Below, piece after piece: positions 23,110-40,696 of a stretch of DNA of 43,421 nucleotides. A program made the position numbers and the translations under genes. Origin of the DNA: a virus. Under the pieces are notes generated by a model that worked only from the letters and a program-made list of their open reading frames with translations, ran no database searches and was not told the DNA's origin. Position 1 is the first letter of the stretch, and each line of letters opens with the position of its first letter. Location: positions 1 to 43,421 of the IMG/VR virus record IMGVR_UViG_3300012354_000002; one strand, 5' to 3'.

Positions 23110-23125
23110 GCAACCGCGAAAAGCC
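23110..23125 (-). promoter_or_regulatory. CGAAAG-element copy before terL
   Basis: On the minus strand the sequence is GGCTTTTCGCGGTTGC, a variant (one extra T) of the element AGCTTTCGYGGTTG found at other transcription starts in this genome, in the same orientation relative to the gene it precedes. It is followed by TAGTATTAC, which resembles a -10 box. It lies just after the preceding minus-strand gene ends, at the head of the terL leader. Confidence 0.55.
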
Positions 23126-23131
23126 ATACCC

Positions 23132-23419
23132 CTAGCTCTCCTTCACGACCCACTGAACCGGGGCCCCATGCAGGGCCGGACCGCGACACAACCTGCCCTC
23201 CACAGAACTCGAAGCCAGCAACTGCGCCTTCAGGCGCGGAGAGAAGATCGGGACCGACTCGTACACGGTCCCCTCCCACATGCCACTACCGACCTCGACA
23301 CGGGCATACACAGGCCACCGAGTCCCAAACGAGGTCAGCACCTCTCGCTCCTCCGAGATGGCCCGAATCCGCACCTGGCGCCCCTCGAAGAGGCGCTCCT
23401 TCCACATCGGCTTCTGCAT
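23132..23419 (-). CDS. 95-aa unknown protein
   Basis: The product starts MQKPMWKERLFEGRQVRIRA and looks like a small beta-barrel: alternating hydrophobic strands, a central VYARVEVGSGMWEGTVYESV and no Cys cluster except one in the C-terminal third. Codon third positions are GC-rich as in real genes here. It is a lone gene between the late operon and the control region; an AT-rich promoter-like block lies about 130 bases upstream and the long G-rich leader precedes it. I do not recognise the family. A late-region regulator is possible but unproven. Confidence 0.6.
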   Translation of the reverse strand: MQKPMWKERLFEGRQVRIRAISEEREVLTSFGTRWPVYARVEVGSGMWEGTVYESVPIFSPRLKAQLLASSSVEGRLCRGPALHGAPVQWVVKES

Positions 23420-23546
23420 GTATCCAGCCTAGAAACCACCCTGACCCCTATCGAGGGATTCCATCCCCCCGTTCCCCCCGCCATCCCCCCACGCCAGGAG
23501 CCCATCCCACCCCACGCAGAATCACCACACATTTGTACGCGGAGAG

Positions 23547-23574
23547 TATATATATAACACACTACTAGTAACAA
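23547..23574 (-). promoter_or_regulatory. promoter candidate, minus strand
   Basis: On the minus strand TTGTTA, a 16-base spacer and TATATA. This is a fair sigma-70-type match (-35 four of six; TATATA close to TATAAT) in the most AT-rich stretch of the genome. It would transcribe the 95-aa gene at 23132-23419 through a long G-rich leader. The same island reads TATATATATA on the plus strand, so direction is not certain. Confidence 0.4.
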
Positions 23575-23606
23575 ACAGGGGGGTGCGCTCGCGCGCCCGC
23601 GCTAGC

Positions 23607-23622
23607 CAGCGGCCGGCCGCTG
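23607..23622. repeat. 16-bp perfect palindrome
   Basis: CAGCGGCCGGCCGCTG reads identically on both strands. It is flanked by CGCGC-rich sequence. A dimeric protein site, cruciform or part of an origin are possibilities; nothing specific is shown. Confidence 0.6.
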
Positions 23623-23669
23623 CACCTGTGCTGACCTGCATAAATACACAGATGTAAGATCATGTACTA

Positions 23670-23691
23670 CCCCTCCCCCCTCCCCCCACCC
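23670..23691 (-). other. G-quadruplex-capable run
   Basis: Four C-runs of 4, 6, 6 and 3 bases with single-base loops (minus-strand G4, G6, G6, G3). This meets the usual G-quadruplex rule on the minus strand. A second set of three G6 runs with 3-6-base loops lies at 23465-23490 on the same strand. Confidence 0.5.
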
Positions 23692-23721
23692 GGGGTATCT
23701 GTCCCGACTATGAGGGTAGAT

Positions 23722-23742
23722 AACCGGAGAGTGCCTCCGGTT
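23722..23742. terminator. perfect hairpin, possible terminator
   Basis: AACCGGAG (23722-23729) pairs with CTCCGGTT (23735-23742) across a 5-base loop. Eight GC-rich pairs without a T-run. It lies before the plus-strand small-gene cluster and could end leftward transcripts or form part of a leader. Confidence 0.4.
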
Positions 23743-23835
23743 CGAGAGGTCGGACCGGTTCAGCGGTATGTGTGACTCGCGGTAACAGGTAGCTCCAGCT
23801 GGGCTCTCTCGCCGTGACCGTATCGTGACTTGACT

Positions 23836-23890
23836 GGCGCTAGCTTTCGCGGTTGTCTTGTGTGGCAGCAAGCAGGACAGCACGAAAGCT
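23836..23890 (+). promoter_or_regulatory. CGAAAGCT inverted-repeat operator/promoter before the plus-strand cluster
   Basis: GCTAGCTTTCGCGGTTG at 23839-23855 and CACGAAAGCT at 23881-23890 form an inverted pair (AGCTTTCGCG against CACGAAAGCT) about 30 bases apart, immediately upstream of the first plus-strand small gene (ATG 23902). The left copy matches the element found before terL, the 36.4 kb and 37.4 kb genes, in the same orientation to transcription. Confidence 0.6.
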
Positions 23891-23901
23891 CGGAGGCGGA
23901 G

Positions 23902-24066
23902 ATGGACAGGATGTACGGGTTCACCAGTCAGGGTGAGCGGGTGCGCATCTACCGCCACGTGTCGGCCAATGACCACTACGTGGTGCGCCTGGTCCTGGGC
24001 AACGGCCGGGTGCAGCGCCTGGCCCGCACGCTGCCGGCGAGCGAGATCACCTTGGAGGAGAAGTGA
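23902..24066 (+). CDS. 54-aa small basic protein
   Basis: Starts at ATG 23902 behind GGAGGCGGAG; the open frame continues upstream to 23830 but crosses the operator element, so I reject the longer start. The product reads MDRMYGFTSQGERVRIYRHV and continues with Tyr-Val-Val-Arg-Leu strands, a compact basic beta-type peptide. Its end overlaps the next gene's GTG (GTGA). First gene of a rightward cluster of small genes, so likely early expressed. Function unknown. Confidence 0.7.
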   Translation: MDRMYGFTSQGERVRIYRHVSANDHYVVRLVLGNGRVQRLARTLPASEITLEEK

Positions 24067-24275
24067 TCATGGACATGGCGGAGGCTCGGTACCTGGTGAT
24101 CGAGGACACGAGGGAGCAGGACCCTGACCGGATGAAGGGCCGGCCGGACGTCGAAGTGTTGGCGTTCGTCACGGCCGAGTTGTCGGGTGACACGGCGACG
24201 GTGGACATGGTGACGGAGGACGACCCCCAGCTGGGGGCGGCGTACCGCCTAGTGCTGGGCATGACTGTCTCCTGA
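24063..24275 (+). CDS. 70-aa acidic small protein
   Basis: GTG at 24063 overlaps the previous stop; ATG at 24069 lies at better spacing from the GGAGGAG site at 24054-24060 and gives 68 aa. The protein is acidic with two strand-like segments (PDVEVLAFVTAELSGDTATV) and a C-terminal AAYRLVLGMTVS. No motif recognised. Acidic small early proteins of phages often bind host proteins, but that is speculation for this one. Confidence 0.65.
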   Translation: MIMDMAEARYLVIEDTREQDPDRMKGRPDVEVLAFVTAELSGDTATVDMVTEDDPQLGAAYRLVLGMTVS

Positions 24276-24342
24276 TCGGGTTGGGTGGTGCTCGCCGGCA
24301 CGCGAGCACTCGCCCTGTTCGATCAAGTACTTTGAGGAGAGA

Positions 24343-24576
24343 GTGAACGCGATGGGTTGCACCTGCGGTATCCCGAACCTAGCTAACACCCACTACTGCG
24401 TGATCATCGGCAAGGGTGACTCGCGCACTGGTACCGAGACGGACTACGTGAACATCTACGTGTGCTCCGCTCACGACCCCGGTACCGAGGACTTCGACGA
24501 CGTTCGGACCCTTTTCGCCTTCGACGGGCCCGACGAGTGGGACGTGCTTGAGGTCACTCGTACCGAGATCCGCTGA
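24343..24576 (+). CDS. 77-aa Cys-containing unknown protein
   Basis: GTG at 24343 or, with better spacing from GAGGAGAG at 24331-24338, ATG at 24352 (74 aa). The N-terminus reads MGCTCGIPNLANTHYC, giving CxCx10C, with a further Cys in NIYVCSAHDP: four Cys/His that could hold a zinc ion. The C-terminal half is acidic. No family recognised; co-oriented with the other small genes. It is separated from the previous gene by 67 bases that contain nothing obvious. Confidence 0.65.
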   Translation: MNAMGCTCGIPNLANTHYCVIIGKGDSRTGTETDYVNIYVCSAHDPGTEDFDDVRTLFAFDGPDEWDVLEVTRTEIR

Positions 24577-24646
24577 GCAGCTTGCGCCATGCATGTTCGG
24601 GGACGTGTGTGGCGCTGGAAGTTCAGCGATGCGAGAGGATGGGAAC

Positions 24647-24826
24647 ATGAGTGAATTCCGATTGGTGATCAAGACTGACAACGCCGCCTTCGAGGACTAC
24701 CCGCGTGAAGTGGCGCGCATACTGCGCCTAGTCGCCGACAAGGTGGAGGACGGTGAACCAACGGGTTCGGCCCGCGACGCCAACGGCAATACGGTGGCCG
24801 CGTTCGGGCCCGAGGGCCAGCTGTAG
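24647..24826 (+). CDS. 59-aa small protein
   Basis: Starts at ATG 24647 with GAGAGGATGGGAA upstream; the upstream open frame to 24548 overlaps the previous gene and is rejected. The product begins MSEFRLVIKTDNAAFEDYPR, then a helix with ARILRLVADKVEDG and a Gly/Asn turn, ending AAFGPEGQL. A one-domain alpha/beta protein of this look (short strand, helix, strand) recurs in actinobacteriophages without known function, as I recall. Confidence 0.7.
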   Translation: MSEFRLVIKTDNAAFEDYPREVARILRLVADKVEDGEPTGSARDANGNTVAAFGPEGQL

Positions 24827-24837
24827 TAGTCGAGGTA

Positions 24838-24880
24838 GCCCGGAAGGTCAACTGCGCCGGTTCGACTCCGGCGCCGGGCA
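24838..24880 (+). other. tRNA-like minihelix (acceptor stem plus T arm only)
   Basis: Acceptor arms GCCCGG (24838-24843) and CCGGGC (24874-24879) enclose a perfect T arm GCCGG-TTCGACT-CCGGC (24856-24872) with the conserved TTCGA loop, then A-C-G-A. Only 12 bases take the place of the D and anticodon arms. I tried a full-length cloverleaf from 24808 and found no anticodon arm. It is either a degenerate tRNA, a structured RNA, or the 3' end of a host tRNA as in phage attachment sites. The recombinase gene is 16 kb away, which argues against the last reading. Confidence 0.4.
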
Positions 24881-24976
24881 CGACAGTGACGGAGTCATCT
24901 GTCGCTGAGGACCGGTCGAAAACGCGACGGTCTGAACACGTACTGGAATCCCCTGAATTTGTGAGGTGTGTTTGTC

Positions 24977-25180
24977 ATGCGCAAGAACTTCAAGAGCGCG
25001 CTGCTGGTGGCCGCAGTTGCGGCCGTGGCCCTGGCCGGCGTGTCGGTGGGCGTGTTCGCCTACGCGCAGTCGCTGCACGTGGAGCCGGCTCCGGTCACGG
25101 TGACTGGCTGCCCCACCGAGGACAGCTGCATCGTGGACTACAGCCACGGTGCGTGGACCATCACGCAGGCGACCCCGTGA
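24977..25180 (+). CDS. secreted or membrane-anchored 67-aa protein
   Basis: ATG at 24977, about nine bases after GAGGTG. Residues 1-5 are basic (MRKNF), then a hydrophobic segment at about 8-30 (ALLVAAVAAVALAGVSVGVF) like a signal peptide or membrane anchor, and a short exported part with two Cys (TGCPTEDSC) that could form a disulfide. No lipobox Cys near the cleavage site. A surface or envelope-acting early protein, for example superinfection exclusion, is possible; there is no direct evidence. Confidence 0.7.
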   Translation: MRKNFKSALLVAAVAAVALAGVSVGVFAYAQSLHVEPAPVTVTGCPTEDSCIVDYSHGAWTITQATP

Positions 25181-25362
25181 GATGCGCACTGTGCGACCTG
25201 GCCGGCGAGCATGCGGACGAGGTGAGCGAGACCGTGTTCTGCGAGCAGCATGCCGGACCACTGTCGTGGCCGGACTGCACGGTGAACGTGTACTCGGCCG
25301 CGCTGCGCATGGCCGGCTACTACGACCAGGCGTTGCCACTACCGGTGAGGGGCGCGGCGTGA
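25177..25362 (+). CDS. 61-aa Cys/His-rich small protein
   Basis: GTG at 25177 overlaps the previous TGA (GTGA). The product starts VRCALCDLAGEHADEV and contains FCEQHAGPLSWPDC, giving CxxC and CxxH spaced about 16 apart: a likely zinc knuckle. The frame is open further upstream to 24886 but only as a shadow of the neighbouring genes. Tight coupling with both neighbours. Function unknown. Confidence 0.65.
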   Translation: MRCALCDLAGEHADEVSETVFCEQHAGPLSWPDCTVNVYSAALRMAGYYDQALPLPVRGAA

Positions 25363-25529
25363 AGGAGTACTACGTCCAGCGCGGCGACATCTACCTGGAC
25401 GCGCTGTTGGAGGCGCGGAAAGTGGTCGGAGAGCTGACCGGAGGGCAGGCCAGGGAGCTTCAAGATCAGGTCTCGGACCTGATCACGGCGGCGATAGCGA
25501 AGGTGGGCGAACTCGATGACCGATCGTGA
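25359..25529 (+). CDS. 56-aa coiled-coil-like small protein
   Basis: GTG at 25359 overlaps the previous gene's TGA. MKEYYVQRGDIYLDALLEAR then a helix of about 40 residues with Leu/Val/Ile at 3-4 spacing (ELQDQVSDLITAAIAKVGEL), so a dimerising helical protein is likely. No other motif. It overlaps the next gene's start at 25516. Confidence 0.65.
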   Translation: MKEYYVQRGDIYLDALLEARKVVGELTGGQARELQDQVSDLITAAIAKVGELDDRS

Positions 25530-25842
25530 TAAGACATCTGCGGAGCAGCGTGTAGGGAGACCGGATCTTCCTTCGGTCGACCGGCCATCCGGCGCGCCGA
25601 CCATGTCGGATGCGCAGCTGATCGACGCGCTCTCCACTGGAGCGCTCAGTCCCGTGACCACGTGCCCGTGTGGTGTTATGCGTTCGATCATGCCTGCCTT
25701 CCATCGTGCCGCGACTGACCACGACTGCGTGCACCATCCGCGCCGTAGCTGCGGTACCTGTCGCAGCGCTGACCGCATGTTGGCAGGGGTGGTGGCGCGA
25801 CTGCGGGCCGAGGTTGAGCACGGCCCGTTCATCGTCGCGTAG
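25516..25842 (+). CDS. 108-aa Cys-rich unknown protein
   Basis: ATG at 25516 inside the preceding gene. The N-terminal 30 residues are polar and disordered, then MSDAQLIDALSTGALS, and a Cys/His-rich part (TTCPCGVMR...HDCVHHPRRSCGTC) with CxC, C and CxxC, probably a small zinc-binding domain, followed by a helix. Last gene of the plus-strand cluster; its stop is directly next to the stop of the minus-strand gene at 25843 (convergent). Confidence 0.7.
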   Translation: MTDRDKTSAEQRVGRPDLPSVDRPSGAPTMSDAQLIDALSTGALSPVTTCPCGVMRSIMPAFHRAATDHDCVHHPRRSCGTCRSADRMLAGVVARLRAEVEHGPFIVA

Positions 25843-26163
25843 CTATCCTTCCCGGCCATTGTGCTCTGCCTCGTGCAGGTCGAGGACTTGCATGTCCTCC
25901 TCGTATCTGCCGCACGCATAGCACGTGTGGTACAGCCGGTTGATGTGCGCCTCTTTCGACTCGCCATCTAGTGGCTGTAGCCAAGGCTTGGACGGCGGAT
26001 AGTCGCCGGGCTCCGGCGTGTCGATGACGCGTGGAATGTAGGGCTCCGGTTCGACCACGCCGTTGACGATGCGTGCGGTAGCGGAGCTATCCGCCGCTGA
26101 CGCCAGCCCCTTCGCCGTGGCGATTATGCGCCGGACTCGCTCCGGTCCGTACGCGCCACTCAC
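25843..26163 (-). CDS. 106-aa unknown protein with CxxC
   Basis: GTG start at 26163 with GAGGGG seven bases upstream, and translation coupled to a 9-codon leader (26160-26189). The N-terminus is helical (RVRRIIATAKGLASAADSSA), the middle Pro-rich (PEPGDYPPSKPWLQPLDG), and the end carries Cys-His pattern HTCYACGRYEED then LHEAEH, a likely zinc site. No family recognised. It is served by the extended -10 promoter candidate at 26220-26228. Confidence 0.65.
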   Translation of the reverse strand: MSGAYGPERVRRIIATAKGLASAADSSATARIVNGVVEPEPYIPRVIDTPEPGDYPPSKPWLQPLDGESKEAHINRLYHTCYACGRYEEDMQVLDLHEAEHNGREG

Positions 26164-26189
26164 TGCGGCCCCTCATTCGCCCTGCTCAT
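26160..26189 (-). CDS. 9-codon leader peptide (MSRANEGPQ)
   Basis: A tiny ORF: ATG at 26189, stop TGA at 26160-26162, overlapping the GTG of the next gene (GTGA). It is preceded directly by GAGGAGGAGCG, one of the strongest ribosome sites in the genome, which would be wasted on anything other than initiating here. The likely role is translational coupling or attenuation of the 106-aa gene. Too short to be proven from one sequence. Confidence 0.5.
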   Translation of the reverse strand: MSRANEGPQ

Positions 26190-26219
26190 CGCTCCTCCTC
26201 GCGTTCTTGACCTGCGAGG

Positions 26220-26228
26220 ATTGTAACA
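26220..26228 (-). promoter_or_regulatory. extended -10 promoter candidate
   Basis: On the minus strand TGTTACAAT: TGn followed by TACAAT, an extended -10 that does not need a -35. The start of the leader ORF is about 30 bases downstream. It lies about 50 bases from a CGAAAGCTAG element (26274-26291), which could be its operator. Confidence 0.45.
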
Positions 26229-26273
26229 CTCGGGCCCATGCAATTGCAGATGCAATGGAACAGTGCGCATGTC

Positions 26274-26326
26274 TTGCAACGAAAGCTAGCGCAACGTAAG
26301 TTTCAACACGAAAGTCAACTCGAAAG
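26274..26326 (-). promoter_or_regulatory. cluster of CGAAAG elements
   Basis: CGAAAG occurs three times on the plus strand (26280-26285 within CGAAAGCTAGCG; 26309-26314; 26321-26326), so as CTTTCG on the minus strand. The first copy has the full CGAAAGCTAG text. The cluster lies between the divergent starts of the 26163 (minus) and 26335 (plus) genes and could control both. Confidence 0.5.
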
Positions 26327-26334
26327 GCGCTGAC

Positions 26335-26528
26335 ATGAACCACGTCATTGACGAAGCCAGGCTGGCCGAAGTCTCTTGGGCCTCGGCTTCATCGAACCAA
26401 CACGCAACGTAGATCAGGGACTCCGCGGCCTGATTGTCACGGTGGGCGTGCTCATATGTGGCGTGCTCGCCACCTACGCAGTAAGATCGGTACTCCGTCA
26501 ACGAAGGGAGGTCAGTCGCGAAGATTAA
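26335..26528 (+). pseudogene. frameshifted small membrane protein gene
   Basis: Starts at ATG 26335 with GAAAGG eight bases upstream and reads MNHVIDEARLAEVSWASA to a stop at 26412. The -1 frame from 26376 to 26528 reads LGLGFIEPTR, then a strong membrane span (GLIVTVGVLICGVLATYAV) and a basic tail ending VSRED. Joining the two at Ser gives a natural 64-aa one-span protein. Either an indel (real or sequencing) split one gene, or there is a -1 frameshift; no classic slippery heptamer is at the junction (TCTCTTGG). The minus-strand frame here is less plausible. Confidence 0.45.
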
Positions 26529-26546
26529 CTTCCGCATGACACAGCT

Positions 26547-26575
26547 GAGCCCCCGGCACGCTAGACCGGGGGCTC
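26547..26575. terminator. bidirectional terminator hairpin
   Basis: GAGCCCCCGG (26547-26556) and CCGGGGGCTC (26566-26575) form a perfect 10-bp stem with a 9-base loop, between a plus-strand and a minus-strand gene that converge here. No T-tract, as is common in high-GC genomes. Confidence 0.75.
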
Positions 26576-26587
26576 ACGCATGCACTG

Positions 26588-26710
26588 TTACTTCTTCTTG
26601 TAAGGCGGGGGCTTCTTCTTGTCCCCCGGCTTCTCGCCCTTCTTGGCGAAGGGGTTGGGCTTGCCGCCCTTGCCCTTGGGCGGCGGCGGCTTCTTCTTGG
26701 CATCTGCCAT
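26588..26710 (-). CDS. 40-aa lysine/proline-rich peptide
   Basis: ATG at 26710 follows GAGGAGGTGATCAGC, a strong ribosome site; the longer frame to 26857 lies opposite another gene and is rejected. The product is MADAKKKPPPPKGKGG followed by more Lys/Pro/Gly and a terminal KKKPPPYKKK, about 40% Lys. It is intrinsically disordered and extremely basic, so it would bind nucleic acid or other polyanions. Last gene of the leftward operon before the terminator. Unknown family. Confidence 0.7.
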   Translation of the reverse strand: MADAKKKPPPPKGKGGKPNPFAKKGEKPGDKKKPPPYKKK

Positions 26711-26741
26711 GCTGATCACCTCCTCACGTGTTCGACGTAAG

Positions 26742-27074
26742 TCAGGTGCCGAGGTCATCCCAGTTGGTGCCCTCAAAGTGCATGATGGCGAGAGCGTTGA
26801 ACACGACGGCGGCAAGATGATCCTCGTCCCGCTCGCCCAGGCGGTACGCCTCCACATGCCGCATCAGCGAGGCCATGAACCGGGACGAGGGCATGCCCAT
26901 CGCCCAGTTGTTGTCACCATACTTGACGGCGCCGCGCGCCATCAGCTCGGCCACCCTCTTGAGGGGTGCCGCTGCGATCAGGTCGTACCGCGGCTTACCT
27001 TCTTGCGTGTCACGTCTGGCGCCGGAATCGTACTCTTCCCGCTGGCCACTGTCCTTGGTGACGTACTCGGTCAC
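26742..27074 (-). CDS. dATP/dGTP diphosphohydrolase-like (DUF5664)
   Basis: The 110-aa product matches the DUF5664 pattern: GKPRYDLIAAAPLKRVAELM, then ARGAVKYGDNNWAMGM, a helix with FMASLMRHVEAYRLGERDED and a final HLAAVVFNALAIMHFEG. This family is related to the MazG-type all-alpha NTP pyrophosphohydrolases and acts on deoxynucleotides; the acidic pairs around residues 80-95 would bind Mg. In phages with 2-aminoadenine DNA the relative MazZ makes dGMP for PurZ, but no purZ is present here, so a role in adjusting host nucleotide pools is likelier. GTG start overlapping the DUF4406 gene by four bases. Confidence 0.8.
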   Translation of the reverse strand: MTEYVTKDSGQREEYDSGARRDTQEGKPRYDLIAAAPLKRVAELMARGAVKYGDNNWAMGMPSSRFMASLMRHVEAYRLGERDEDHLAAVVFNALAIMHFEGTNWDDLGT

Positions 27075-27385
27075 GCCGCCTTCACCTCATCGCCGAAGCC
27101 GTGCGTCCTGACCGGCATGCGCAAACTCTGAGCCACGTGCACCTCCAGCTGGGCGCCCCTGCTCTGCTCCCAGCCCGGGAGAGCAACAACCTCGTCGCAC
27201 TCAAGCAACTTGACCAAGTCGTAGCGAAGGTAGTCTTCCCACTCCCAGCCCTCGATCACGCCCTTGTCGGCCGGGTTCTCCACCTCGTAGCCCGCAGCGC
27301 GCAGCTGCTCCGCCGCGGCGTTGAAGGCGGGGAAGTTGTGGCCATTGATGCCGGACATCGGGCCCGACACGTAGACGCGCGTCAT
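27071..27385 (-). CDS. DUF4406 nucleoside deoxyribosyltransferase-like protein
   Basis: The 104-aa protein starts MTRVYVSGPMSGINGHNFPA, the signature YVSGPMSGI of DUF4406, and continues with FNAAAEQLRAAGYEVENPAD and DEVVALPGWEQSRGAQLEVH. The fold is that of nucleoside 2-deoxyribosyltransferases (Rossmann-like). The Gly-Pro-Met-Ser loop would bind the nucleotide and the late Glu acts as the nucleophile (GAQLEV). In phages these small enzymes are assigned to nucleotide salvage. It overlaps the exonuclease gene by four bases and DUF5664 by four, a compact nucleotide-metabolism module. Confidence 0.82.
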   Translation of the reverse strand: MTRVYVSGPMSGINGHNFPAFNAAAEQLRAAGYEVENPADKGVIEGWEWEDYLRYDLVKLLECDEVVALPGWEQSRGAQLEVHVAQSLRMPVRTHGFGDEVKAA

Positions 27386-28134
27386 GCGATACCTCGCTCA
27401 TCCACCCTGGCGATAGCCGTCTTGCCCCTTGACCATCCGCCACAGTCATTGCAGCGGTACTGCTGGAAGGTGGACAGTGCGGTGTAGGCGTAGCCTCTGC
27501 GCTCCAGATCCACGCTCGCGCACCTGTTGCAGCAGTGCTCCCGATCCGTGTACAGGCCCATGTGCGGGTGGTTGTGGATGCGGGGCAGCAGCCTGCGGTA
27601 CACGCCCTTGGTGAGACGTACGTCACCGATGTTGTATCGGCGCATGCGTGCCCACGCCCTCTCGTCGCCGGCCATGCACGCCATCCACAAGGCGTGACCC
27701 TCGTGCTTCACCTTCGAGCCCACGCCCAGCTGCTGCGCCACGTTGTCCAGCTTGTTCGACTCGAAGCGGAAGTGCTTACGCACCACTCGCAACAGGTCCA
27801 CGTCCAGGGTGGGTGACTCGACCGGCAGGCCGGCAACCTCGATCTCGGTACGCAGATGCGGTAGGTCGAAGGCGACCTGGTTGTATCCGACCGTGATGTC
27901 CGCCTCGTCCAAGAGGCGCCGGGCCTGCGACACCATCTCTTCCGTGCCGTGGTGGAACTCGGAGTAGAACTCCACCTTGGACTTGTCCTCCCAGGACGCT
28001 GCGAAGCAGATGGTGCGCCCGAACTGCTCCACCTGGGACAGTGGTGTCGAGTGCTTGTCGAACAGCCGCCACTTGTGGACGATGTTGGGTGCGCGTTCGA
28101 TGTCGAGCACCAGAATGCGCGGGCCTGTACTCAC
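27382..28134 (-). CDS. 3'-5' exonuclease (RNase H fold) with C-terminal zinc ribbon
   Basis: The 250-aa protein has the three DEDD motifs: ILVLDIERAPN (D10, E12), VGYNQVAFDLPHL (Exo II, about 85-97) and YNIGDVRLTKGVY (YxxxD, Exo III, about 170). This is like the exonuclease domain of family B polymerases or YprB-type predicted 3'-5' exonucleases, but no polymerase domain follows. Instead residues about 205-240 form a zinc ribbon (CNRC...CNDC). Such stand-alone proteins occur in actinobacteriophages, as I recall. Role in DNA end processing during replication is inferred. Overlaps both neighbours by four bases. Confidence 0.8.
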   Translation of the reverse strand: MSTGPRILVLDIERAPNIVHKWRLFDKHSTPLSQVEQFGRTICFAASWEDKSKVEFYSEFHHGTEEMVSQARRLLDEADITVGYNQVAFDLPHLRTEIEVAGLPVESPTLDVDLLRVVRKHFRFESNKLDNVAQQLGVGSKVKHEGHALWMACMAGDERAWARMRRYNIGDVRLTKGVYRRLLPRIHNHPHMGLYTDREHCCNRCASVDLERRGYAYTALSTFQQYRCNDCGGWSRGKTAIARVDERGIA

Positions 28135-28493
28135 GCGCCCGCCTCTCGCGCCGCACGCAACGCGGCCAGGCGCTGGGCTTCCGCCTGCTTGAACGCCTCG
28201 ATCTGGCGCAAGCGTTCCGCCTCGTCCGCGTCTCGCTGCCCGCCGTTGCGGATGCGATCCGCGGCACTAATGTCGTCCTCCGCCAAGGCGGGCACCTTCC
28301 CTTCGTCCACGATGGCCAAGCCGGAGTAGTCCCCATCCCCCGTCAGATGACAATGCACCTGCTCGACCGCGGCGCCCGCCAGCTCCTCCCGCAACGCCTT
28401 CTGGGCGAACGAGAAGAGGAGGGAAGACATGGTGTGTCTACGCATGTGATCCACCCTCACCATGAGTTGGTAGCTGACGTCTCCGGCGAACAC
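28131..28493 (-). CDS. 120-aa helical unknown protein
   Basis: GTG at 28493, directly after the previous stop; a later in-frame ATG at 28430 would leave a shorter product. The first 30 residues are atypical, the rest has a hydrophilic strand region (EQVHCHLTGDGDYSGLAIVD) and a long charged coiled-coil tail (RLRQIEAFKQAEAQRLAALR). No family recognised. Four-base overlap with the exonuclease gene. Confidence 0.6.
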   Translation of the reverse strand: MFAGDVSYQLMVRVDHMRRHTMSSLLFSFAQKALREELAGAAVEQVHCHLTGDGDYSGLAIVDEGKVPALAEDDISAADRIRNGGQRDADEAERLRQIEAFKQAEAQRLAALRAAREAGA

Positions 28494-28495
28494 GG

Positions 28496-32467: not shown

Positions 32468-32475
32468 GCGAATTC

Positions 32476-34244: not shown

Positions 34245-34261
34245 AGGTGTCTCCTGTTTCG

Positions 34262-34318: not shown

Positions 34319-34329
34319 CTTGCCTCTCT

Positions 34330-35390: not shown

Positions 35391-35535
35391 GCCGCGACTC
35401 CAATCGTTGGAGTACACGGGTGGCGATGCGCCAGCCCAGCTTGCCGGCCAAGCCCAGCAGGAATGCGCCGATACCGAGTAGCGAGGCGCTGCGATGGGCG
35501 CAGCCCTGAGGACCGTAGTCCTTGCGAGTGCTCAT
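35374..35535 (-). CDS. 53-aa one-span membrane protein
   Basis: ATG at 35535 with GGAG eight bases upstream; too short for most callers. MSTRKDYGPQGCAHRSASLL, then a span (GIGAFLLGLAGKLGWRIATR) and a basic tail ending SRHDSAH. Overlaps the next gene's start by 17 bases. A membrane-tethered protein of unknown function. Confidence 0.65.
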   Translation of the reverse strand: MSTRKDYGPQGCAHRSASLLGIGAFLLGLAGKLGWRIATRVLQRLESRHDSAH

Positions 35536-35589
35536 CTACTTCGCTCCTACGAATTCGAACCGTGAGTGATAAGTCGAAAGGCTGTTGCG

Positions 35590-35919
35590 TCAGCGACTGC
35601 CGCTGAGTTGTTCGGTACTGGCCAGCGTGCTATCCACCATCACCAGATCGGTGCCGACAGCCACGGCCTCGCGGATGCGATGCGTCAGCCAGTCGCTGCA
35701 CTCCGGCACATAGATGACGTAGCCACCCAGGCGCCAGGCGTAGCGCTCCTCCGCCTTGCTGGCGGAGTCGTCGCCCGCCTTCAAGATGAGGTCGCCGCTC
35801 GTGGGGCGGGTGTCCTTGTAGGCCACGGTGAGGGTGATGTGCTGGAGCAGGTCGGCCGAGACTGCCTCTTTGAAGGCTTTGATGGTGCGGCTACCCCGCG
35901 CGTGAAAGAACGTGATCAC
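35590..35919 (-). CDS. 109-aa unknown protein
   Basis: GTG at 35919 overlaps the TGA of the 183-aa gene (GTGA). VITFFHARGSRTIKAFKEAV continues with a strand-helix pattern (LTVAYKDTRPTSGDLILKAG) and ends with GTDLVMVDSTLASTEQLSGSR. Looks like a compact alpha/beta domain resembling small Rossmann-type proteins; the Asp at the end of a strand (VMVD) is suggestive. Family not recognised. Confidence 0.65.
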   Translation of the reverse strand: MITFFHARGSRTIKAFKEAVSADLLQHITLTVAYKDTRPTSGDLILKAGDDSASKAEERYAWRLGGYVIYVPECSDWLTHRIREAVAVGTDLVMVDSTLASTEQLSGSR

Positions 35920-36467
35920 TGGACGACCTCGACGTACGGGCCGAATCGCGTGCTCACGTGGTCGCCCCACGGCATGCCCTCCTCGTCGTAGCCCTCGCCC
36001 CCGCGCCCCACCCACTCGCCGGGACCGTCTCGCAAGAGGACATCCCCTTCCTTGTCTCGCACCTCCTTGACGTGCGCCGGGGGCTCCTCGCTGCCATTGC
36101 CGGTCCACGGCTCGCGCACCTTCTGCGCGTCGGCGGCCGGAGTGCCCGGCACGGCGCCGACGACCTTGGAGATGCCCGCCAGAGACTCATGGCTGGCCCA
36201 GCCATTGGCGTCAAGACGCGCCCAGGGCCGACCGATTTCGTCGGGACCGTACGGCTCGTACCCGATATTGACGTACCGTCCCAAGCCGAACTCACGGATC
36301 GTTCCGCGCGGGTCCTCGCTCGGGTCGTCGACAGGCTTGACCAGCTCGATCACGCTCGCGTTGTCCTTCGTGTCCCAGTACGCGGTGGAGCCGAACCGGG
36401 TCTGGTACGTCACGTTGACCAGGTCCCCGTTGAGGGGCTCCCAGTCGCTCGGCTTGAGCTCGGTCAC
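35916..36467 (-). CDS. 183-aa beta-rich unknown protein
   Basis: GTG at 36467; GAAAGGTGAG lies thirteen bases upstream. The product is beta-rich and acidic (VNVTYQTRFGSTAYWDTKDN), with a middle PGTPAADAQKVREPWTGNGS and an acidic Gly-rich end. The first 60 residues look like a small beta-barrel. No signal peptide. First gene after the CGAAAG element (36501-36520) and terminator-like hairpin (36533-36556), so it heads its own transcription unit. Confidence 0.65.
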   Translation of the reverse strand: MTELKPSDWEPLNGDLVNVTYQTRFGSTAYWDTKDNASVIELVKPVDDPSEDPRGTIREFGLGRYVNIGYEPYGPDEIGRPWARLDANGWASHESLAGISKVVGAVPGTPAADAQKVREPWTGNGSEEPPAHVKEVRDKEGDVLLRDGPGEWVGRGGEGYDEEGMPWGDHVSTRFGPYVEVVQ

Positions 36468-36500
36468 GTCTCGTCACTCACCTTTCATCGCAACTGTACT

Positions 36501-36520
36501 TGCAACCACGAAAGCTAGCG
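36501..36520 (-). promoter_or_regulatory. CGAAAGCTAG element before the 36.4 kb unit
   Basis: On the minus strand CGCTAGCTTTCGTGGTTGCA, the best match to the shared element. It sits between the hairpin that closes the previous gene and the GTG of the 183-aa gene, in the same orientation as the copies before the 23.9 kb and 37.4 kb genes. Confidence 0.6.
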
Positions 36521-36532
36521 GGTAAAAAGTAA

Positions 36533-36556
36533 GGCGAGCCGGGTCCGGGGCTCGCC
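36533..36556 (-). terminator. terminator-like hairpin
   Basis: GGCGAGCC (36533-36540) pairs with GGCTCGCC (36549-36556) over an 8-base loop, directly after the stop of the minus-strand gene at 36568. No T-run. A CGAAAG element lies immediately downstream. Confidence 0.65.
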
Positions 36557-36567
36557 GCGGGTACTGC

Positions 36568-36768
36568 CTACGCGATCAGGTCTTCGATGTCCTCGGCCGG
36601 CAACAGGTCGATCGGGTCATCGGGCCTGTCGACCGTGGGCAGAAGGAAGGCTTTCACGCCGTCGATCACGGGCCCCAACGCCAGCACGTCATACCTGTCT
36701 ACGTCAGGCGGCAAGGTGACCGACCAGTTGCCGGTGCCGTCTACTTCGAACTGTGCCTTGAACGTCAT
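36568..36768 (-). CDS. 66-aa small protein
   Basis: ATG at 36768. MTFKAQFEVDGTGNWSVTLP then DVDRYDVLALGPVIDGVKAF and an acidic end with DLLPAEDIEDLIA. Beta-strand start, acidic helix end. No RBS of note in the 95 bases upstream (36769-36863), where no other gene is seen. Terminated by the hairpin at 36533. Unknown function. Confidence 0.65.
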   Translation of the reverse strand: MTFKAQFEVDGTGNWSVTLPPDVDRYDVLALGPVIDGVKAFLLPTVDRPDDPIDLLPAEDIEDLIA

Positions 36769-36863
36769 GCGACACCAACTGTCCAGATTGTTTCGAACCT
36801 ATTACCTGTCACGTCGGGTCGGATCTTGTCACTGTTACCGACCGTGAACGCTACTGACCGGTA

Positions 36864-37124
36864 TCACCCGAGAGGGTTAGTAACCCTGTCCACATGACAC
36901 TCTCCGTGGGTCCAGATACGTCCTGCCCAGACGCCAGTAGCAATACCGCACTCACGCAACGTGGCCTTGCGCTCCTCTTCGCACCAGTCACGCTGTGTGC
37001 AGCGAGTGACGCACTGACGTTCCGCCCACTTCCGCGCCGCGGCCGTGTTGTCGTCCTGCCATGGACCGGGATTCTGGTAGCAGGGCAGCTGCTGCTTCTC
37101 CTGATCGGAGAGTTCCCGATTCAA
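36864..37124 (-). CDS. WhiB-family Fe-S transcription factor
   Basis: WhiB proteins are found in actinobacteria and their phages and regulate transcription through region 4 of sigma factor. Seen here: the single first Cys in QLPCYQNPGPW, then CVTRC and WC (Cys-x3-Cys-x5-Cys), forming the four-Cys Fe-S cluster, followed by GVWAGRIW (the GVWGG turn) and a short basic C-terminus without a clear AT-hook. TTG at 37124 overlaps the preceding TGA with GAGG eight bases upstream; an in-frame GTG at 37151 adds nine residues with no ribosome site. Supports an actinobacterial host and gives the phage a regulator of host or phage promoters. Confidence 0.85.
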   Translation of the reverse strand: MNRELSDQEKQQLPCYQNPGPWQDDNTAAARKWAERQCVTRCTQRDWCEEERKATLRECGIATGVWAGRIWTHGECHVDRVTNPLG

Positions 37125-37453
37125 CGAGTGGCCTCGATGTATTGCACCCACTCGTCAGTCAGGTCGGCAAACAACTCCTCGTCGTGGCAGTTGAATCCCA
37201 TGTCGTAATCGGCGTTGTCGAACTCGTCGATTCCGAAGCTGCGAAGGATGTACTCCCAGATCGCCTCGTGTCCACCGGCCAGTTGACCGAGGACGCAACG
37301 AGTGCACTCCGACAGGTTCAGCCTGCCGAGGTTAATGCGCTGGCGCCAGCCGGGCGCACGCTCATCCAGGTAGGCCGCGCCACGAGCGATGCGCGCACCG
37401 AACTGACCGCTGGGTACCGCCACCTGAGTGGCGCCCGATGGTGTGTCTGTCAT
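37121..37453 (-). CDS. 110-aa unknown protein (WhiB operon)
   Basis: ATG at 37453; an upstream in-frame ATG at 37483 overlaps the CGAAAG element and is rejected. The product starts MTDTPSGATQVAVPSGQFGA, then a helix set with LNLSECTRCVLGQLAGGHEA (a CxxC) and an acidic end FGIDEFDNADYDMGFNCHDE. No RBS is evident between the element and ATG, so initiation may be leaderless. Overlaps the WhiB gene by four bases. Function unknown. Confidence 0.62.
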   Translation of the reverse strand: MTDTPSGATQVAVPSGQFGARIARGAAYLDERAPGWRQRINLGRLNLSECTRCVLGQLAGGHEAIWEYILRSFGIDEFDNADYDMGFNCHDEELFADLTDEWVQYIEATR

Positions 37454-37484
37454 GTGATCACTGTCGCTGAAGCATCGCGACAAA

Positions 37485-37509
37485 GCAAGACAACCACGAA
37501 AGTTAGGCC
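37485..37509 (-). promoter_or_regulatory. CGAAAG element before the WhiB unit
   Basis: On the minus strand CTAACTTTCGTGGTTGTCTT, matching the other copies with one change. It precedes the 37453 start codon by about 30 bases. Together with a similar text before the 23.9 kb cluster (TTTCGCGGTTGTCTTG) it supports a shared promoter or operator. Confidence 0.55.
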
Positions 37510-37625
37510 GAACAGACCAGGTGAGCGGCTAACACTCACACTCAGACGGTCCTGACAATACTCCATTCGAGTGAACCCGTAAGGCTGTCTTGACACGTGA
37601 TCGTCCGGCACGTCAGTCTTGTCTT

Positions 37626-37778
37626 GTGGATACAGGGTGGGCGACCATGGTCATCGCCCACCAGGTGCGCCGGCTCCGCCCGGCGCCAGCACCGCACCGG
37701 TATGGCCGGGCTTCCAGCCCCGGCCCAGCAACAGTACCTGTACTGGTCCAGCCGGCGCGGGGGCGCCGGACAGGGTGA
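37626..37778 (+). CDS. possible small Pro/Arg-rich ORF
   Basis: GTG at 37626 gives about 50 aa (VDTGWATMVIAHQVRRLRPA...). A 488-base stretch (37484-37971) otherwise lacks a gene. A long hairpin begins right at its stop codon. There is no clear ribosome site, the composition is shadow-like, and several other ORFs overlap it, so I give it low weight. Confidence 0.25.
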   Translation: MDTGWATMVIAHQVRRLRPAPAPHRYGRASSPGPATVPVLVQPARGRRTG

Positions 37779-37807
37779 GCAGCCAGCCCATAGGGCTGCT
37801 CACCCTG
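37771..37807 (+). terminator. strong hairpin, 14-bp perfect stem
   Basis: CAGGGTGAGCAGCC (37771-37784) pairs with GGCTGCTCACCCTG (37794-37807), loop 9 bases. One of the strongest inverted repeats in the genome. It lies in the gap between the leftward WhiB unit and the rightward 37972 gene, with a second hairpin (GAGGCT-CTTC-AGCCTC at 37818-37833) just after. Terminator or RNA structure; no T-run. Confidence 0.6.
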
Positions 37808-37955
37808 GTACACGCGCGAGGCTCTTCAGCCTCGTCCTTCGCCCCGGACTAGCGCGAAGCGCCACAACACCACAGTCATTGGGCCGTGAAAGATTCACCA
37901 CTCGCCGGACACGCTTGGTTATCTTCTGGTTTGTCTTGAGTTCGTGATCTCCACA

Positions 37956-37980
37956 AGCTTTCATTGCAACCATGAAAGCT
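37956..37980 (+). promoter_or_regulatory. inverted repeat across the start codon of the zinc-finger gene
   Basis: AGCTTTCAT (37956-37964) and ATGAAAGCT (37972-37980) are perfect inverted arms around TGCAACC. The right arm contains the ATG start codon itself. It is the CGAAAGCT element with one base changed in each arm. A protein bound here would block translation or transcription start; a leaderless or hairpin-occluded start is equally possible. Confidence 0.55.
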
Positions 37981-38685
37981 CGAACTGACACCTGCAACAC
38001 CGACGGCTGCTTTAAGACGCGGTGGCGCAAGGACCCGGGACTGTGCCAGGCCTGCGCACGCAAAGCCGGCCTGTACCCCGAGCTGGCCGAATGCGCCGAA
38101 GACGGCTGCACACGCAAGGCCCGCTCGCTCGGGGTGGGCAGCAGGTGTCGCAAACACGGCGGCCCCGCCCCCAAAGGGACAGTGCAGCCGGGGGAGACGA
38201 GCCTGTGCAAGGCTCGCGACTGTCGCTACCGGGCCGGCGAGGGCGGCCTGTGCGGCAAACACCGAAACGCCTCGGAGACCGCCCGGGACCGTTCCCGTTG
38301 CGTCACGCCCGCCTGCGTGAACGTTCGCAGCCGGGCGGGCGGCTACTGCTTCGTCTGCTACCGGCGCTACGGCTCCACCCTCAACACCTGCGCGCACCCA
38401 CTGTGTCAACACAAGACGGTTGACGAGTACTGCGAGTCGCACGACGTGGGCCTGGACTATGCCGCGGGCGACTGGTTCGACTGGGTTGCCGCGGAGCGCT
38501 TGTTCCACGGCAGCCACGGCAGTCGCAAGCCGACCGTCCCCGAGCTGCTCTGGGTTCTGGCCAAGGCCGACCGAGTGAACCTGGAGTACACGGTGTTGGC
38601 CGAGCGGATCGGCATTCAGCACAGGCTGATGGCGAGCTGGCGCAAGACCGCCGCCCGTATCGAAGAGGCGCGGGTGGCCGCATGA
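37972..38685 (+). CDS. five-zinc-finger protein with C-terminal HTH
   Basis: The 237-aa protein carries five tandem units, each with two Cys, a basic linker, Cys and then Cys or His: CNTDGCFKT (unit 1), CAEDGCTRKARS, CKARDCRYRA, CVTPACVNVRS and CAHPLCQHKT, every one closed by CxxC, CxxH or similar. Spacing is about Cx4C-x10-14-Cx2[C/H]. Such a string of small fingers is typical of sequence-specific DNA recognition. Residues about 155-237 look like a separate helical domain with AERIGIQHRLMASWRKTAAR, possibly a helix-turn-helix. ATG at 37972 lies in a CGAAAG-type inverted repeat. The gene directly precedes a DNA methyltransferase (ATGA overlap), so it may guide or regulate it. I know no named family. 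Confidence 0.75.
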   Translation: MKARTDTCNTDGCFKTRWRKDPGLCQACARKAGLYPELAECAEDGCTRKARSLGVGSRCRKHGGPAPKGTVQPGETSLCKARDCRYRAGEGGLCGKHRNASETARDRSRCVTPACVNVRSRAGGYCFVCYRRYGSTLNTCAHPLCQHKTVDEYCESHDVGLDYAAGDWFDWVAAERLFHGSHGSRKPTVPELLWVLAKADRVNLEYTVLAERIGIQHRLMASWRKTAARIEEARVAA

Positions 38686-39611
38686 GAATCGGATCACTCT
38701 GCACCGGCTACGGCGGGCTGGACATGGCCGCCCAGCGCGTCTTCGGCGGTCGCCTCAGGTGGGTGTCCGACGTGGACCCCGGCCCGATCGCGCTCCTAGC
38801 CCATCACTACCCCGACGTACCAAACCTCGGCGACCTCAAGACCGTCGACTGGGCCACCGTCGAACTCGTCGACCTACTCACGGCCGGCTACCCGTGCCAG
38901 CCCTTCAGCAACGCAGGGAAGCGCCTTGGAACCGAAGACCCCCGCCACCTCTGGCCCTGGATCGCCCGCGCCATTGGCGCACTACGACCCCGAATCGTCG
39001 TCCTGGAGAACGTCGCAGCCCACCTCCGGAAAGGGTTCGACGTCGTTCTCGCAGACCTTGCCGGCCTCGGGTATGACGTCGCGTGGTCGATTGTTCGCGC
39101 TTCCGACACCGGAGCCGCTCACCAAAGGGCCCGACTCTTCATCGTCGCTACCGACGCCGCTCGCGAACCTGTCGAAGGGAGCTTGGCCGAAGCAGTCCCG
39201 GCAAGGGGGGCCTTCCCTCCAGACGGCCTTGCTAGCCCTGTTCCCGACACCGAGAGCGTCGGACGGCGAGAAGGGGGGCCCCAACCAGCGCAGTTCGAGC
39301 GGGGACCCGATGCTGCCCACGATCGTGAACCGCTTGACTGGCAAGAGTTCGAACCAGCCATCCGCCAATGGGAACGCCGCTTAGGCCGGCCCGCTCCGGC
39401 TCCGTCCGTGTTCGGCCCGCGCGGCGGGGTGAAGGTGTCCCCAGCGTTCGGCGAGTGGCTCATGGGCCTGCCTGAGGGACGCATCACCGACGTGCCCGGC
39501 CTGTCGATCAACGAACAACTGAAGCTGGTCGGCAACGGTGTCGTGCCACAGCAGGCCGAGCACGCGATCCGGTATCTAACGGCTCAACTCGTAGTGCACG
39601 ATGCCGCATGA
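38682..39611 (+). CDS. C5 cytosine DNA methyltransferase
   Basis: The 309-aa protein has the ten-motif order: motif I SLCTGYGGLD (about 5-14, SAM binding), motif IV with catalytic Cys GYPCQPFSNAGKR (C72), motif VI ENVAAHL (about 109-115), motif VIII QRARLFIV (about 148-155) and motif X LKLVGNGVVPQQ near the C-terminus. The target-recognition region between VIII and IX is short. No restriction enzyme gene adjoins it, so it is an orphan enzyme, useful for escaping host restriction. ATG overlaps the zinc-finger gene by four bases and its stop overlaps the next HTH gene. A second frame open inside it is treated separately. Confidence 0.92.
   Translation: MRIGSLCTGYGGLDMAAQRVFGGRLRWVSDVDPGPIALLAHHYPDVPNLGDLKTVDWATVELVDLLTAGYPCQPFSNAGKRLGTEDPRHLWPWIARAIGALRPRIVVLENVAAHLRKGFDVVLADLAGLGYDVAWSIVRASDTGAAHQRARLFIVATDAAREPVEGSLAEAVPARGAFPPDGLASPVPDTESVGRREGGPQPAQFERGPDAAHDREPLDWQEFEPAIRQWERRLGRPAPAPSVFGPRGGVKVSPAFGEWLMGLPEGRITDVPGLSINEQLKLVGNGVVPQQAEHAIRYLTAQLVVHDAA
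38926..39384 (+). CDS. possible overprinted ORF inside the methyltransferase gene
   Basis: In the +1 frame relative to the methyltransferase an ORF of 152 codons runs through its middle. Its peptide has the segments SSSWRTSQ, TLPASGMTSRGRLFALPTPEP and FPTPRASDGEKGGPNQRSS; I associate the SSSWRTSQ...LPxSGM...LPTPxAxDG order with proteins found beside C5 methyltransferases in other phages and bacteria. The methyltransferase frame in the same bases has its own conserved motifs (ENV, QRARLF). If both are true this is dual coding. High GC makes open second frames common, so I score it as a candidate only. Confidence 0.35.
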   Translation: MEPKTPATSGPGSPAPLAHYDPESSSWRTSQPTSGKGSTSFSQTLPASGMTSRGRLFALPTPEPLTKGPDSSSSLPTPLANLSKGAWPKQSRQGGPSLQTALLALFPTPRASDGEKGGPNQRSSSGDPMLPTIVNRLTGKSSNQPSANGNAA

Positions 39612-39958
39612 GAACCCGTAGCTACGGCCGCGGCGGGAGCCGCGGTGTCCCCGACGGCTACGACACCTGGTATGACTGGGCACTCGTCTACCGCTACTGG
39701 CACGGCAACAATGCCGGCCTGCGCCAGCCATACCTTCTGGAGATTCAAGAGCTGCTGCGCCTCGGCGCAGACATGCGCGCCGAGGATCTGGCCACGCAGC
39801 TGGGCGTGTCCAGGCGCACCGTGGAGCGGTGGCGGTCCCAGCATCCCGGATGGTTCGACGCCACGCGATCTAGCCGGCAGGCGCGCACATGGCGCCAAGC
39901 TAACGCGCCAACATCGAAACGAGGCAGCGAAGCTGTCCTCGCCGAAGATGCCAGCTAG
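39608..39958 (+). CDS. HTH DNA-binding protein
   Basis: The 116-aa product overlaps the methyltransferase by four bases (ATGA). The N-terminus is Arg/Gly/Tyr-rich (RTRSYGRGGSRGVPDGYDTW). Residues about 55-85 are a helix-turn-helix, AEDLATQLGVSRRTVERWRS, as in MerR/Xre or terminase-like regulators, followed by a Trp-rich Gln/Ser tail. It may regulate the switch or act as a small terminase-like protein. Its stop overlaps the convergent repressor candidate. Confidence 0.72.
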   Translation: MRTRSYGRGGSRGVPDGYDTWYDWALVYRYWHGNNAGLRQPYLLEIQELLRLGADMRAEDLATQLGVSRRTVERWRSQHPGWFDATRSSRQARTWRQANAPTSKRGSEAVLAEDAS

Positions 39959-40392
39959 CGAGCTAGCATTGAGGGCCCGTCGCCGGGGCGACGATTCCGC
40001 AGCATGAAGCCCTTGTTGTAGTCGTACGTCAGCACGGCCTCGTGCGTGGCAAGGAACTCTTCCAGCTCCCGCATCCACCGCAGCTCTTGCGGGCTGACAC
40101 CTTTGCCTTGCCGCATCTTGCCGTAGGCCACGGCCGCCCTGTACACCCAGCCTTGCGCGTGCAAAGGACTGCGAACAACCCACGGCATCACGTACCTGGT
40201 CCTCGCATCCTCCTCATCGAGGATGCGTTGGACTCGCTGGCCAACGGCCTGTGGGGAGATGCGCCGGCCGCGTTCGGTGAACCAGTCGGCGATCTCCTTC
40301 TTGTTCAAGCCCTTGTCGAGCAGTTTCTGGATCTCTTCGTCTTCGATGCCTGAGCGCGGCGGCCTACGGTCGACAGCGTGCATGTCTTTCAT
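39955..40392 (-). CDS. HTH repressor candidate
   Basis: The 145-aa protein points away from the recombinase, across a 161-bp control region with direct repeats. It contains a helix-turn-helix, IQKLLDKGLNKKEIADWFTE (about 20-40) and a second helical part (RGRRISPQAVGQRVQRILDE), then a conserved-looking domain with VYRAAVAYGKMRQGKGVSPQ and Phe/Tyr-rich end. Layout is what is expected for an immunity repressor or a helix-turn-helix regulator of a lysis-lysogeny switch. Start at 40392 lies next to a direct repeat; no RBS is seen, so translation may be leaderless, or start at 40383. Confidence 0.7.
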   Translation of the reverse strand: MKDMHAVDRRPPRSGIEDEEIQKLLDKGLNKKEIADWFTERGRRISPQAVGQRVQRILDEEDARTRYVMPWVVRSPLHAQGWVYRAAVAYGKMRQGKGVSPQELRWMRELEEFLATHEAVLTYDYNKGFMLRNRRPGDGPSMLAR

Positions 40393-40553
40393 CGTACAAC
40401 TTGTGACAGGTTGCGTACAAGTGATAGCTGAGCTTGCAGATAAAGCTAACTTGTGCCAAAGTTTGCCCAGCTCAAGTGAACCGTCGTAGTCGTCCTCGAT
40501 TGATCGCGAAAGCTAAGCTTGCCAACTTTCGCTACGAAAGGTAACGTGAAAGC
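40393..40553. promoter_or_regulatory. divergent switch region with direct repeats
   Basis: No gene. CGTACAA occurs at 40393-40399 and 40414-40420, exactly 21 bp (two helical turns) apart, and AACTTGTG at 40398-40405 and again at 40448-40455, forming operator-like direct repeats beside the repressor start. Near the rightward genes CGAAAG occurs at 40507-40512 and 40535-40540 with an inverted CTTTCG at 40526-40531. This is the most complex control region of the window. Confidence 0.6.
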
Positions 40554-40694: not shown

Positions 40695-40696
40695 AG

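Follow-up and report, generated by a model that had tools for sequence, protein, structure and literature searches.

The closest described systems are the repressor-stoperator systems of the cluster A phages, such as L5, Bxb1 and TipsytheTRex, and of the R4-like phages. Phage L5 has more than twenty sites, each a 13-mer, whose orientation is tied to transcription and whose function is lost on reversal (PMC9283540). The site words differ between the subclusters of cluster A (PMC6550527), and for R4-like phages a system with eight or more intergenic sites has been described (PMC10276819). Here, we analysed the dispersed element CGAAAGCT in the virus record IMGVR_UViG_3300012354_000002, which is 43,421 bases in length, has a G+C content of ~64% and was taken as a whole (the window). 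With a probability of about 0.75, we consider CGAAAGCT to be the operator of the L5/R4-type immunity repressor predicted to be encoded by the phage at 39955-40392.

Positions of the element in the window

As listed in Table 1, the window contains five exact copies of CGAAAGCT, compared to a mean of 1.00 in shuffled sequences; five copies were reached in 0/100 shuffles. All five are located in gaps between genes or at a gap edge, the copy at 26280 touching the edge of a doubtful called gene. In line with the initial annotation, which had noticed none inside structural genes, 0/5 exact copies are in the structural module (1-22900). Five further copies of the original list carry one mismatch. The sites lie in the gap between the repressor and integrase genes and in about four other gaps, in mixed orientation unlike that of stoperators, and the earlier description of a genome-wide element present at most transcription-unit starts was thus too broad. 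Five exact, five one-mismatch and two two-mismatch copies (26309 and 26321) of the original list were recovered; the copy placed at 23110 was not, it reads CGCGAAAAGCC and does not match at ≤1 mismatch. The longer shared sequence TAGCTTTCGTGGTTG is exact at 36503-36517, but one base off near 23842 (TAGCTTTCGCGGTTG) and 37497 (TAACTTTCGTGGTTG).

Among the 9-mers of the gaps, CGAAAGCTA ranks first, with four copies in four gaps against 0.03 expected; AAAGCTA is the top 7-mer and CAAGACAA the top 8-mer. The density of the hexamer CGAAAG is 2.21 per kb in gaps versus 0.33 in genes. When the repressor-integrase gap was used as bait, CGAAAGCTA recurred in 3/22 other gaps (P 0.024 and 0.023).

The repressor as proposed ligand

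The initial annotation had named the helix-turn-helix (HTH) protein at 39955-40392 as a candidate ligand of operator-like sites and had drawn the comparison with L5-type phages; both points are supported by profile comparison. The protein matches PHROG 3929, a transcriptional repressor, with an E-value of 4.6e-4. One profile built from this protein and its homologues in two related contigs, G002 and G003, was aligned by hhalign with seven cluster A-type (L5/Bxb1-type) repressors, Bxb1 gp69 included, and gave Prob 97.9 and E 4.7e-13 over 124 columns, covering both the HTH and the stoperator domain. Against four R4-type repressors, the values were Prob 94.4 and E 9.5e-8 over 121 columns; these E-values are those of single comparisons. 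According to its annotation, R4 gp29 resembles L5 gp71. When the protein of contig G004 was included in the profile and 177,635 distinct PDB sequences were searched, the TipsytheTRex immunity repressor was the best match, at a weak E-value of 0.11. Using the G002 repressor, tblastn gave 12 phage records, all weak (E 0.4-0.9), and 11 of the 12 are Streptomyces phage records annotated as repressor.

The predicted model of the repressor is of middling quality, with a predicted local distance difference test (pLDDT) score of 72.6 and a predicted template modelling (pTM) score of 0.46. In the VIA structural comparison, 7r6r_A ranked first (Z 5.8, root-mean-square deviation 2.7, 68 aligned residues, residues 74-145 of the model). 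The match falls on the stoperator domain, given as residues 75-181 in PMC9283540. Taken together, the sequence profiles indicate that 39955-40392 is a remote homologue of the L5/R4-type immunity repressors, stoperator domain included.

A second HTH protein (39608-39958) is encoded convergently with the repressor gene and is conserved in G002 and in a further relative, G012; it may act as a second regulator or be a terminase small subunit. Its HTH_23 domain scores above the cut-off and, together with its conservation beside the repressor, this would allow it to be the ligand of the operator instead. We regard that as very unlikely: its weak PHROG matches are terminase small subunits and DNA-binding proteins, whereas 39955-40392 has known operator-binding homologues and sites beside its own start.

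Related phages carry their own words at the same places

Relatives were collected by TerL alignment: of the 80 matches kept, seven are contigs whose TerL is 52-62% identical. G012 (47.5 kb) was found by a conserved noncoding pattern. G002 (46 kb), G003 (30 kb) and G012 are largely collinear with the window, and their repressor homologues are 49-58% identical to that of the window (49% for G002). Each of them has a word of its own in the repressor-integrase gap and at the corresponding unit starts: ATCAAGCATGAC in G002, CACAAG in G003 and TACAAG in G012. Single-protein scans with the window repressor and TerL found no relative, the scan with the repressor alignment only returned G003 and G002, and the genome-contig scan with that alignment found none. 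The refuting condition of the initial annotation, absence of the sites from related phages with the same repressor, calls for a near-identical repressor, and none was found in another phage; in the phages with 49-58% identical repressors, the positions are kept, but the words are replaced.

The replacement is seen most directly upstream of the plus cluster, where TTGACT is kept in 4/4 phages and is followed by the phage's own word in 4/4. The 18 bases after TTGACT hold the own word in antisense in the window (CGAAAG) and G003 (CACAAG); in G012, these bases hold the variant CTCAAG, and TACAAG is located further down. At the ribosome-binding site of the plus cluster, the window, G002 and G003 have their own word in sense orientation, adjoining or overlapping the site, and G012 has TTCAAG there. 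In the window, TAGCTTTCG comes after a terminator-like hairpin before 36467(-); G002 and G012 have such a hairpin at the equivalent positions, with CTTGAT and ACTTGTA, respectively, behind it. The window hairpin was found by scan, those of G002 and G012 by eye. The place corresponding to the 36509 site reads ATCAAGT in G002 and TACAAGT in G012.

These observations also bear on the suggestion, raised in the initial annotation, that the element could be a promoter; it would then be a motif for a phage sigma factor or an alternative host sigma factor and not an operator. The position at unit starts would fit this, and outside the repressor-integrase gap CTTTC points toward the following gene at 7/10 sites and in reverse at 3/10 (two-mismatch copies counted; only ten sites). 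However, the flanking TTGACT stays constant while the element changes from phage to phage, which makes a promoter quite unlikely; moreover, both orientations are represented among the copies, and some of them cover start codons. The sigma-70 scan, which is silent on other sigma factors, detected no promoter at the sites (1 elsewhere, 2.8 expected). It also missed the promoter-like element upstream of the plus cluster, whose -10 sequence, TGTCTT, is a guess.

Nine gaps could be matched between the window (≤1 mismatch) and G002 (≤2 mismatches): the site is present in both for four of them, in the window only for one and in neither for four (Fisher one-sided P 0.04). With the repressor-integrase gap set aside, the gaps of 4/4 phages contain their own word at a higher density than any of the other three words. 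In segments chosen at the unit starts, the own words were counted 4, 3, 7 and 4 times and the other twelve cells total 4; only 1/24 word-to-phage assignments, the true one, scores as high. As the segments were drawn after the sites had been seen, the window word came from the original finding and the G012 counterpart of 37423(-) is displaced, we read this comparison as a consistency check and not as a blind test.

The statistics are strongest in G002. At ≤1 mismatch, gaps contain 8/8 matches of ATCAAGCATGAC, including two in the repressor-integrase gap, and the structural module contains 0/8; at two mismatches, many more of the matches fall within genes. In the blind test, the best word was derived from the gap sequences at four settings and scored against shuffled gaps and non-overlapping gene samples. 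The G002 word was reached by 0/100 shuffles in all four settings; among 100 gene samples, it was reached by 0-1 in three settings and by 25 in the longest, loosest one. With its repressor-integrase gap as bait, the 9-mer CATGCTTGA was found in 5/27 other gaps (P 0.004), and over five settings P was 0.004-0.064 against shuffled baits. These results indicate that, in G002, the repressor-adjacent word is dispersed to other unit starts.

In G003, CACAAG occurs seven times in the repressor-integrase gap and three times at the plus-cluster start. For TACAAG of G012, there are three copies in the repressor-integrase gap and five in the remaining gaps, at 0.90 per kb versus 0.43 in genes. Among the top 12 sites of position weight matrices, used as a view only, 8/12 are in gaps in the window, 11/12 in G002 and 4/12 in G003. 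Overall, a phage-specific word that is dispersed and also present next to the repressor gene is clearly seen in G002; the evidence for it is moderate in the window and partial in G003 and G012.

The cluster just upstream of the integrase gene could suggest arm-type integrase or excisionase sites. However, copies recur at unrelated unit starts as far as 17 kb from there, and G002 has the same pattern; this is the least probable of the explanations, with hardly any weight.

Two side observations concern the words themselves. The repressor-proximal half of the window gap (40393-40470) contains ACAAGT/CAAGTT words resembling those of G003 and G012, and, judging from these letters, the window repressor may accept CACAAG besides CACGAAAG. 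A possible own word of phage G009 (TerL 40%; loci L188-L190) is ACTTACG/CGTAAGT: of 33 copies in the contig, 9 are in gaps, where 0.78 would be expected. Neither G009 nor G007 passed the most-gaps test. The viral contigs were also scanned for CAACCNCGAAAGNTAG, which gave 86 stretches with one match each in the best 80 of 86; from the motif density, these were read as chance.

Observations weighing against the operator assignment

A number of results, besides the post hoc choice of the unit-start segments, count against the operator assignment. At ≤1 mismatch, the window has 33 matches versus a shuffle mean of 27.6, and 17/100 shuffles reach 33, so that the window is not enriched at this level; 22 of the 33 are in called genes and 11 in gaps. 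In the blind test, the significance of the best word of the window is modest, with P 0.01-0.07 when shuffled gaps and 0.19-0.76 when gene samples served as the control. An earlier blind test gave P 0.63, 0.033 and 0.12 for 8-, 9- and 10-mers against shuffles, and an earlier control with overlapping gene samples, since replaced by non-overlapping ones, found the best window words ordinary (P 0.75-1.0). With the window bait, the P-values against shuffled baits were 0.06-0.98 for the four remaining word settings. Taken alone, the window therefore gives a modest, test-dependent significance that would leave the matter open, and the stronger evidence is that from the relatives.

The composition of the gaps also contributes. 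In the three relatives, CGAAAG is two- to fourfold denser in gaps (0.54-1.05 per kb) than in genes (0.22-0.25), so gap composition explains part of the CGAAAG excess. It is not the sole repeated hexamer of the window's repressor-integrase gap, as ACAAGT and CAAGTT occur three times each, and at the unit-start segments of the window TGAAAG is as frequent as CGAAAG.

The relatives do not fit in every respect. In G002, no ATCAAG is located within 18 bases behind TTGACT, and the words come only after that. No dispersed word passed the blind test in the 30-kb fragment G003, and its repressor-integrase gap as bait found none. In G004, one of the four blind settings gave P 0.04 against shuffles and 0.55 against genes; its repressor-integrase gap is missing because the repressor gene is at the contig start. 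TACAAGT is only third among the 7-mers of G012, and the counterpart of 37121-37423 is elsewhere in that genome. For the repressor, tblastn with the window protein found no match among phage records, Foldseek with the predicted model found no match at E ≤0.001, and the Z-score of 5.8 is middling and proves nothing alone, yet it agrees with the sequence profiles.

Part of these data would be accounted for if the start-proximal copies were ribosome-binding sites and the remainder chance. The 3' end of 16S RNA is able to base-pair with GAAAG. Several sense copies abut or overlap ribosome-binding sites, the one-mismatch count is not above chance, and CGAAAG is gap-dense in the relatives too. We consider this explanation unlikely: outside the repressor-integrase gap, 7/10 sites have the copy on the opposite strand, each phage has its own bases in front of AAG, and the G002 word is beyond chance.

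Comparison with repressor-stoperator systems

The operator assignment places the window beside two known systems. Like the cluster A phages, it has a repressor homologous over the HTH and the stoperator domain, and its lineage has phage-specific words. With the R4 system, it shares a homologous repressor and sites in intergenic DNA, there in streptomycete phages (PMC10276819). Our own word count on R4 gives TGTGYAAGTGTCGC-like words, which may or may not be the published site; at ≤3 mismatches, these have 23 matches, chance matches included, several of them among structural genes and 20/23 along transcription. Different from R4, whose words are also among structural genes and mostly along transcription, the window has another word, no exact copy in the structural module and mixed orientation. 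Compared to L5, the sites of the original list are few, 10 at ≤1 mismatch at five places, again in mixed orientation.

The structural operon is free of sites in both the window (0/5 exact copies) and G002 (0/8), and one orientation does not predominate (7 versus 3 in the window, degenerate copies counted; 20/23 in R4). Unlike stoperators, the window sites often form a pair, one on the promoter side and one at the ribosome-binding site. As the repressor and the dispersed word agree with the known systems, while the structural-operon sites and the orientation do not, we take the system as a variant of this kind and do not use the name stoperator. Start-associated sequences of cluster K mycobacteriophages have a fixed motif beside the Shine-Dalgarno sequence.

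Gene layout and affiliation of the phage

The phage is a temperate relative of the Beephvirinae Streptomyces phages. Among the matches listed, TerL of these phages (Stella and others) is 37-42% and the capsid protein 33-37% identical to that of the window, and by our own reading the gene orders are similar. Unlike the window, Stella has neither an integrase nor an immunity repressor in its annotation, and its genome is without CGAAAGCT. Megablast of 18500-43400 found no match among phage or plasmid records.

Positions 1-22900 contain mostly minus-strand structural genes. One small plus cluster starts near 23902; the minus-strand genes after it include those for DNA polymerase exonuclease subunits, primase, endolysin, a DnaB-like helicase and a PD-(D/E)XK nuclease. 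Thereafter come a plus operon with a C-5 methylase gene, the repressor gene and the tyrosine integrase gene (Table 1). The C-5 cytosine methylase gene (38682-39611, PF00145) has no homologue listed in G002 or G012; AGCT within the element was considered as a target of this methylase, which is unsupported, as AGCT is not avoided (173 versus 134 expected).

The tRNA-Met gene at 8792-8866 is on the minus strand near the capsid gene; in the equivalent region of Stella, there is a series of tRNA genes. One noncoding block at 23530-23690 (GCGGAGAGTATATATATAACACAC...AACAAACAGGGGGGT...AATACANNNATGTAAGATCAT...) is kept in G002, G003 and G012. It is located upstream of TerL, where the Stella record begins, and may for that reason be a candidate packaging or end site. 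The genome-contig scan with the noncoding pattern gave three stretches in unrelated organisms, which were taken as chance.

Table 1. Coordinates of the sites and of the principal genes in the window
Feature	Position	Strand	Remark
Portal	19196-21037	-	
TerL	21039-22898	-	
Promoter-like element	23830-23859	+	TTGACT (23830-23835), 18 bases holding the antisense site, TGTCTT (putative -10)
CGAAAGCT	23842-23849	-	exact; between TTGACT and putative -10; antisense to plus cluster
CGAAAGCT	23883-23890	+	exact; directly before ribosome-binding site (CGGAGG) of 23902(+)
CGAAAGCT	26280-26287	+	exact; upstream of 25843-26163(-)
CGAAAGTC at 26309, CGAAAGGC at 26321	26309-26328	+	two mismatches each
TGAAAGGT	36480-36487	-	two mismatches; sense copy over ribosome-binding site of 36467(-)
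CGAAAGCT	36509-36516	+	exact; shortly after terminator-like hairpin (36533-36556, -); upstream of 35916-36467(-)
CGAAAGTT	37497-37504	+	one mismatch; upstream of 37121-37423(-)
TGAAAGCT	37956-37963	-	one mismatch; first of inverted pair at start of 37972(+)
TGAAAGCT	37973-37980	+	one mismatch; over start codon of 37972(+)
Putative L5/R4-type immunity repressor, 145 aa	39955-40392	-	N-terminal HTH and stoperator-like domain; proposed ligand
Degenerate site-like words GATAGCTGAG, ATAAAGCTAA	40423-40449	+	near repressor start; by eye; weak
CGAAAGCT	40507-40514	+	exact; repressor-integrase gap
CGAAAGTT	40524-40531	-	one mismatch; repressor-integrase gap
CGAAAGGT	40535-40542	+	one mismatch; repressor-integrase gap
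TGAAAGCA	40547-40554	+	weak copy
Tyrosine integrase	40679-41689	+	divergent from repressor; PF00589 E 3e-9; PHROG 1 E 1.4e-20

Proposed mechanism and implications

In the prophage, the repressor would occupy the site cluster between its own gene and the integrase gene. At the starts of about four other early transcription units, it would occupy between one and three sites each. It would probably act as a monomer, with its two DNA-binding domains reading the asymmetric site. When located right behind TTGACT, or just after a terminator, a bound site would block initiation by excluding the polymerase directly. The second copy, in sense and located at the start codon or ribosome-binding site, may block early elongation as a roadblock, or may simply be a second operator. 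With the early promoters shut, the structural genes, which are without an exact site, would be silent because the early products are wanting.

It is possible, and we put it forward only tentatively, that these phages represent a temperate actinophage lineage in which an L5/R4-type repressor is combined with paired sites at early unit starts, none in the structural operon and a separate word for each member. Of each pair, one site would be antisense and in or near the promoter, and the other would be in sense and at the start codon or ribosome-binding site. Systems of this sort are expected in actinophages by specialists; to our knowledge, neither the swapped-word series nor the paired layout has been described in this lineage, and both, the series spanning four phages, are directly testable.

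If true, one repressor would block initiation together with the first steps of elongation or translation, and each member would constitute its own immunity group. The operator assignment as such extends the L5/R4 type of immunity to an uncultured phage lineage. In the window and its three relatives, nature provides a series of four repressors, each with a different word at equivalent positions. With such a series, one can ask how the DNA specificity of a two-domain repressor shifts when every one of its sites has to shift too, and what distinguishes a stoperator from a simple operator.

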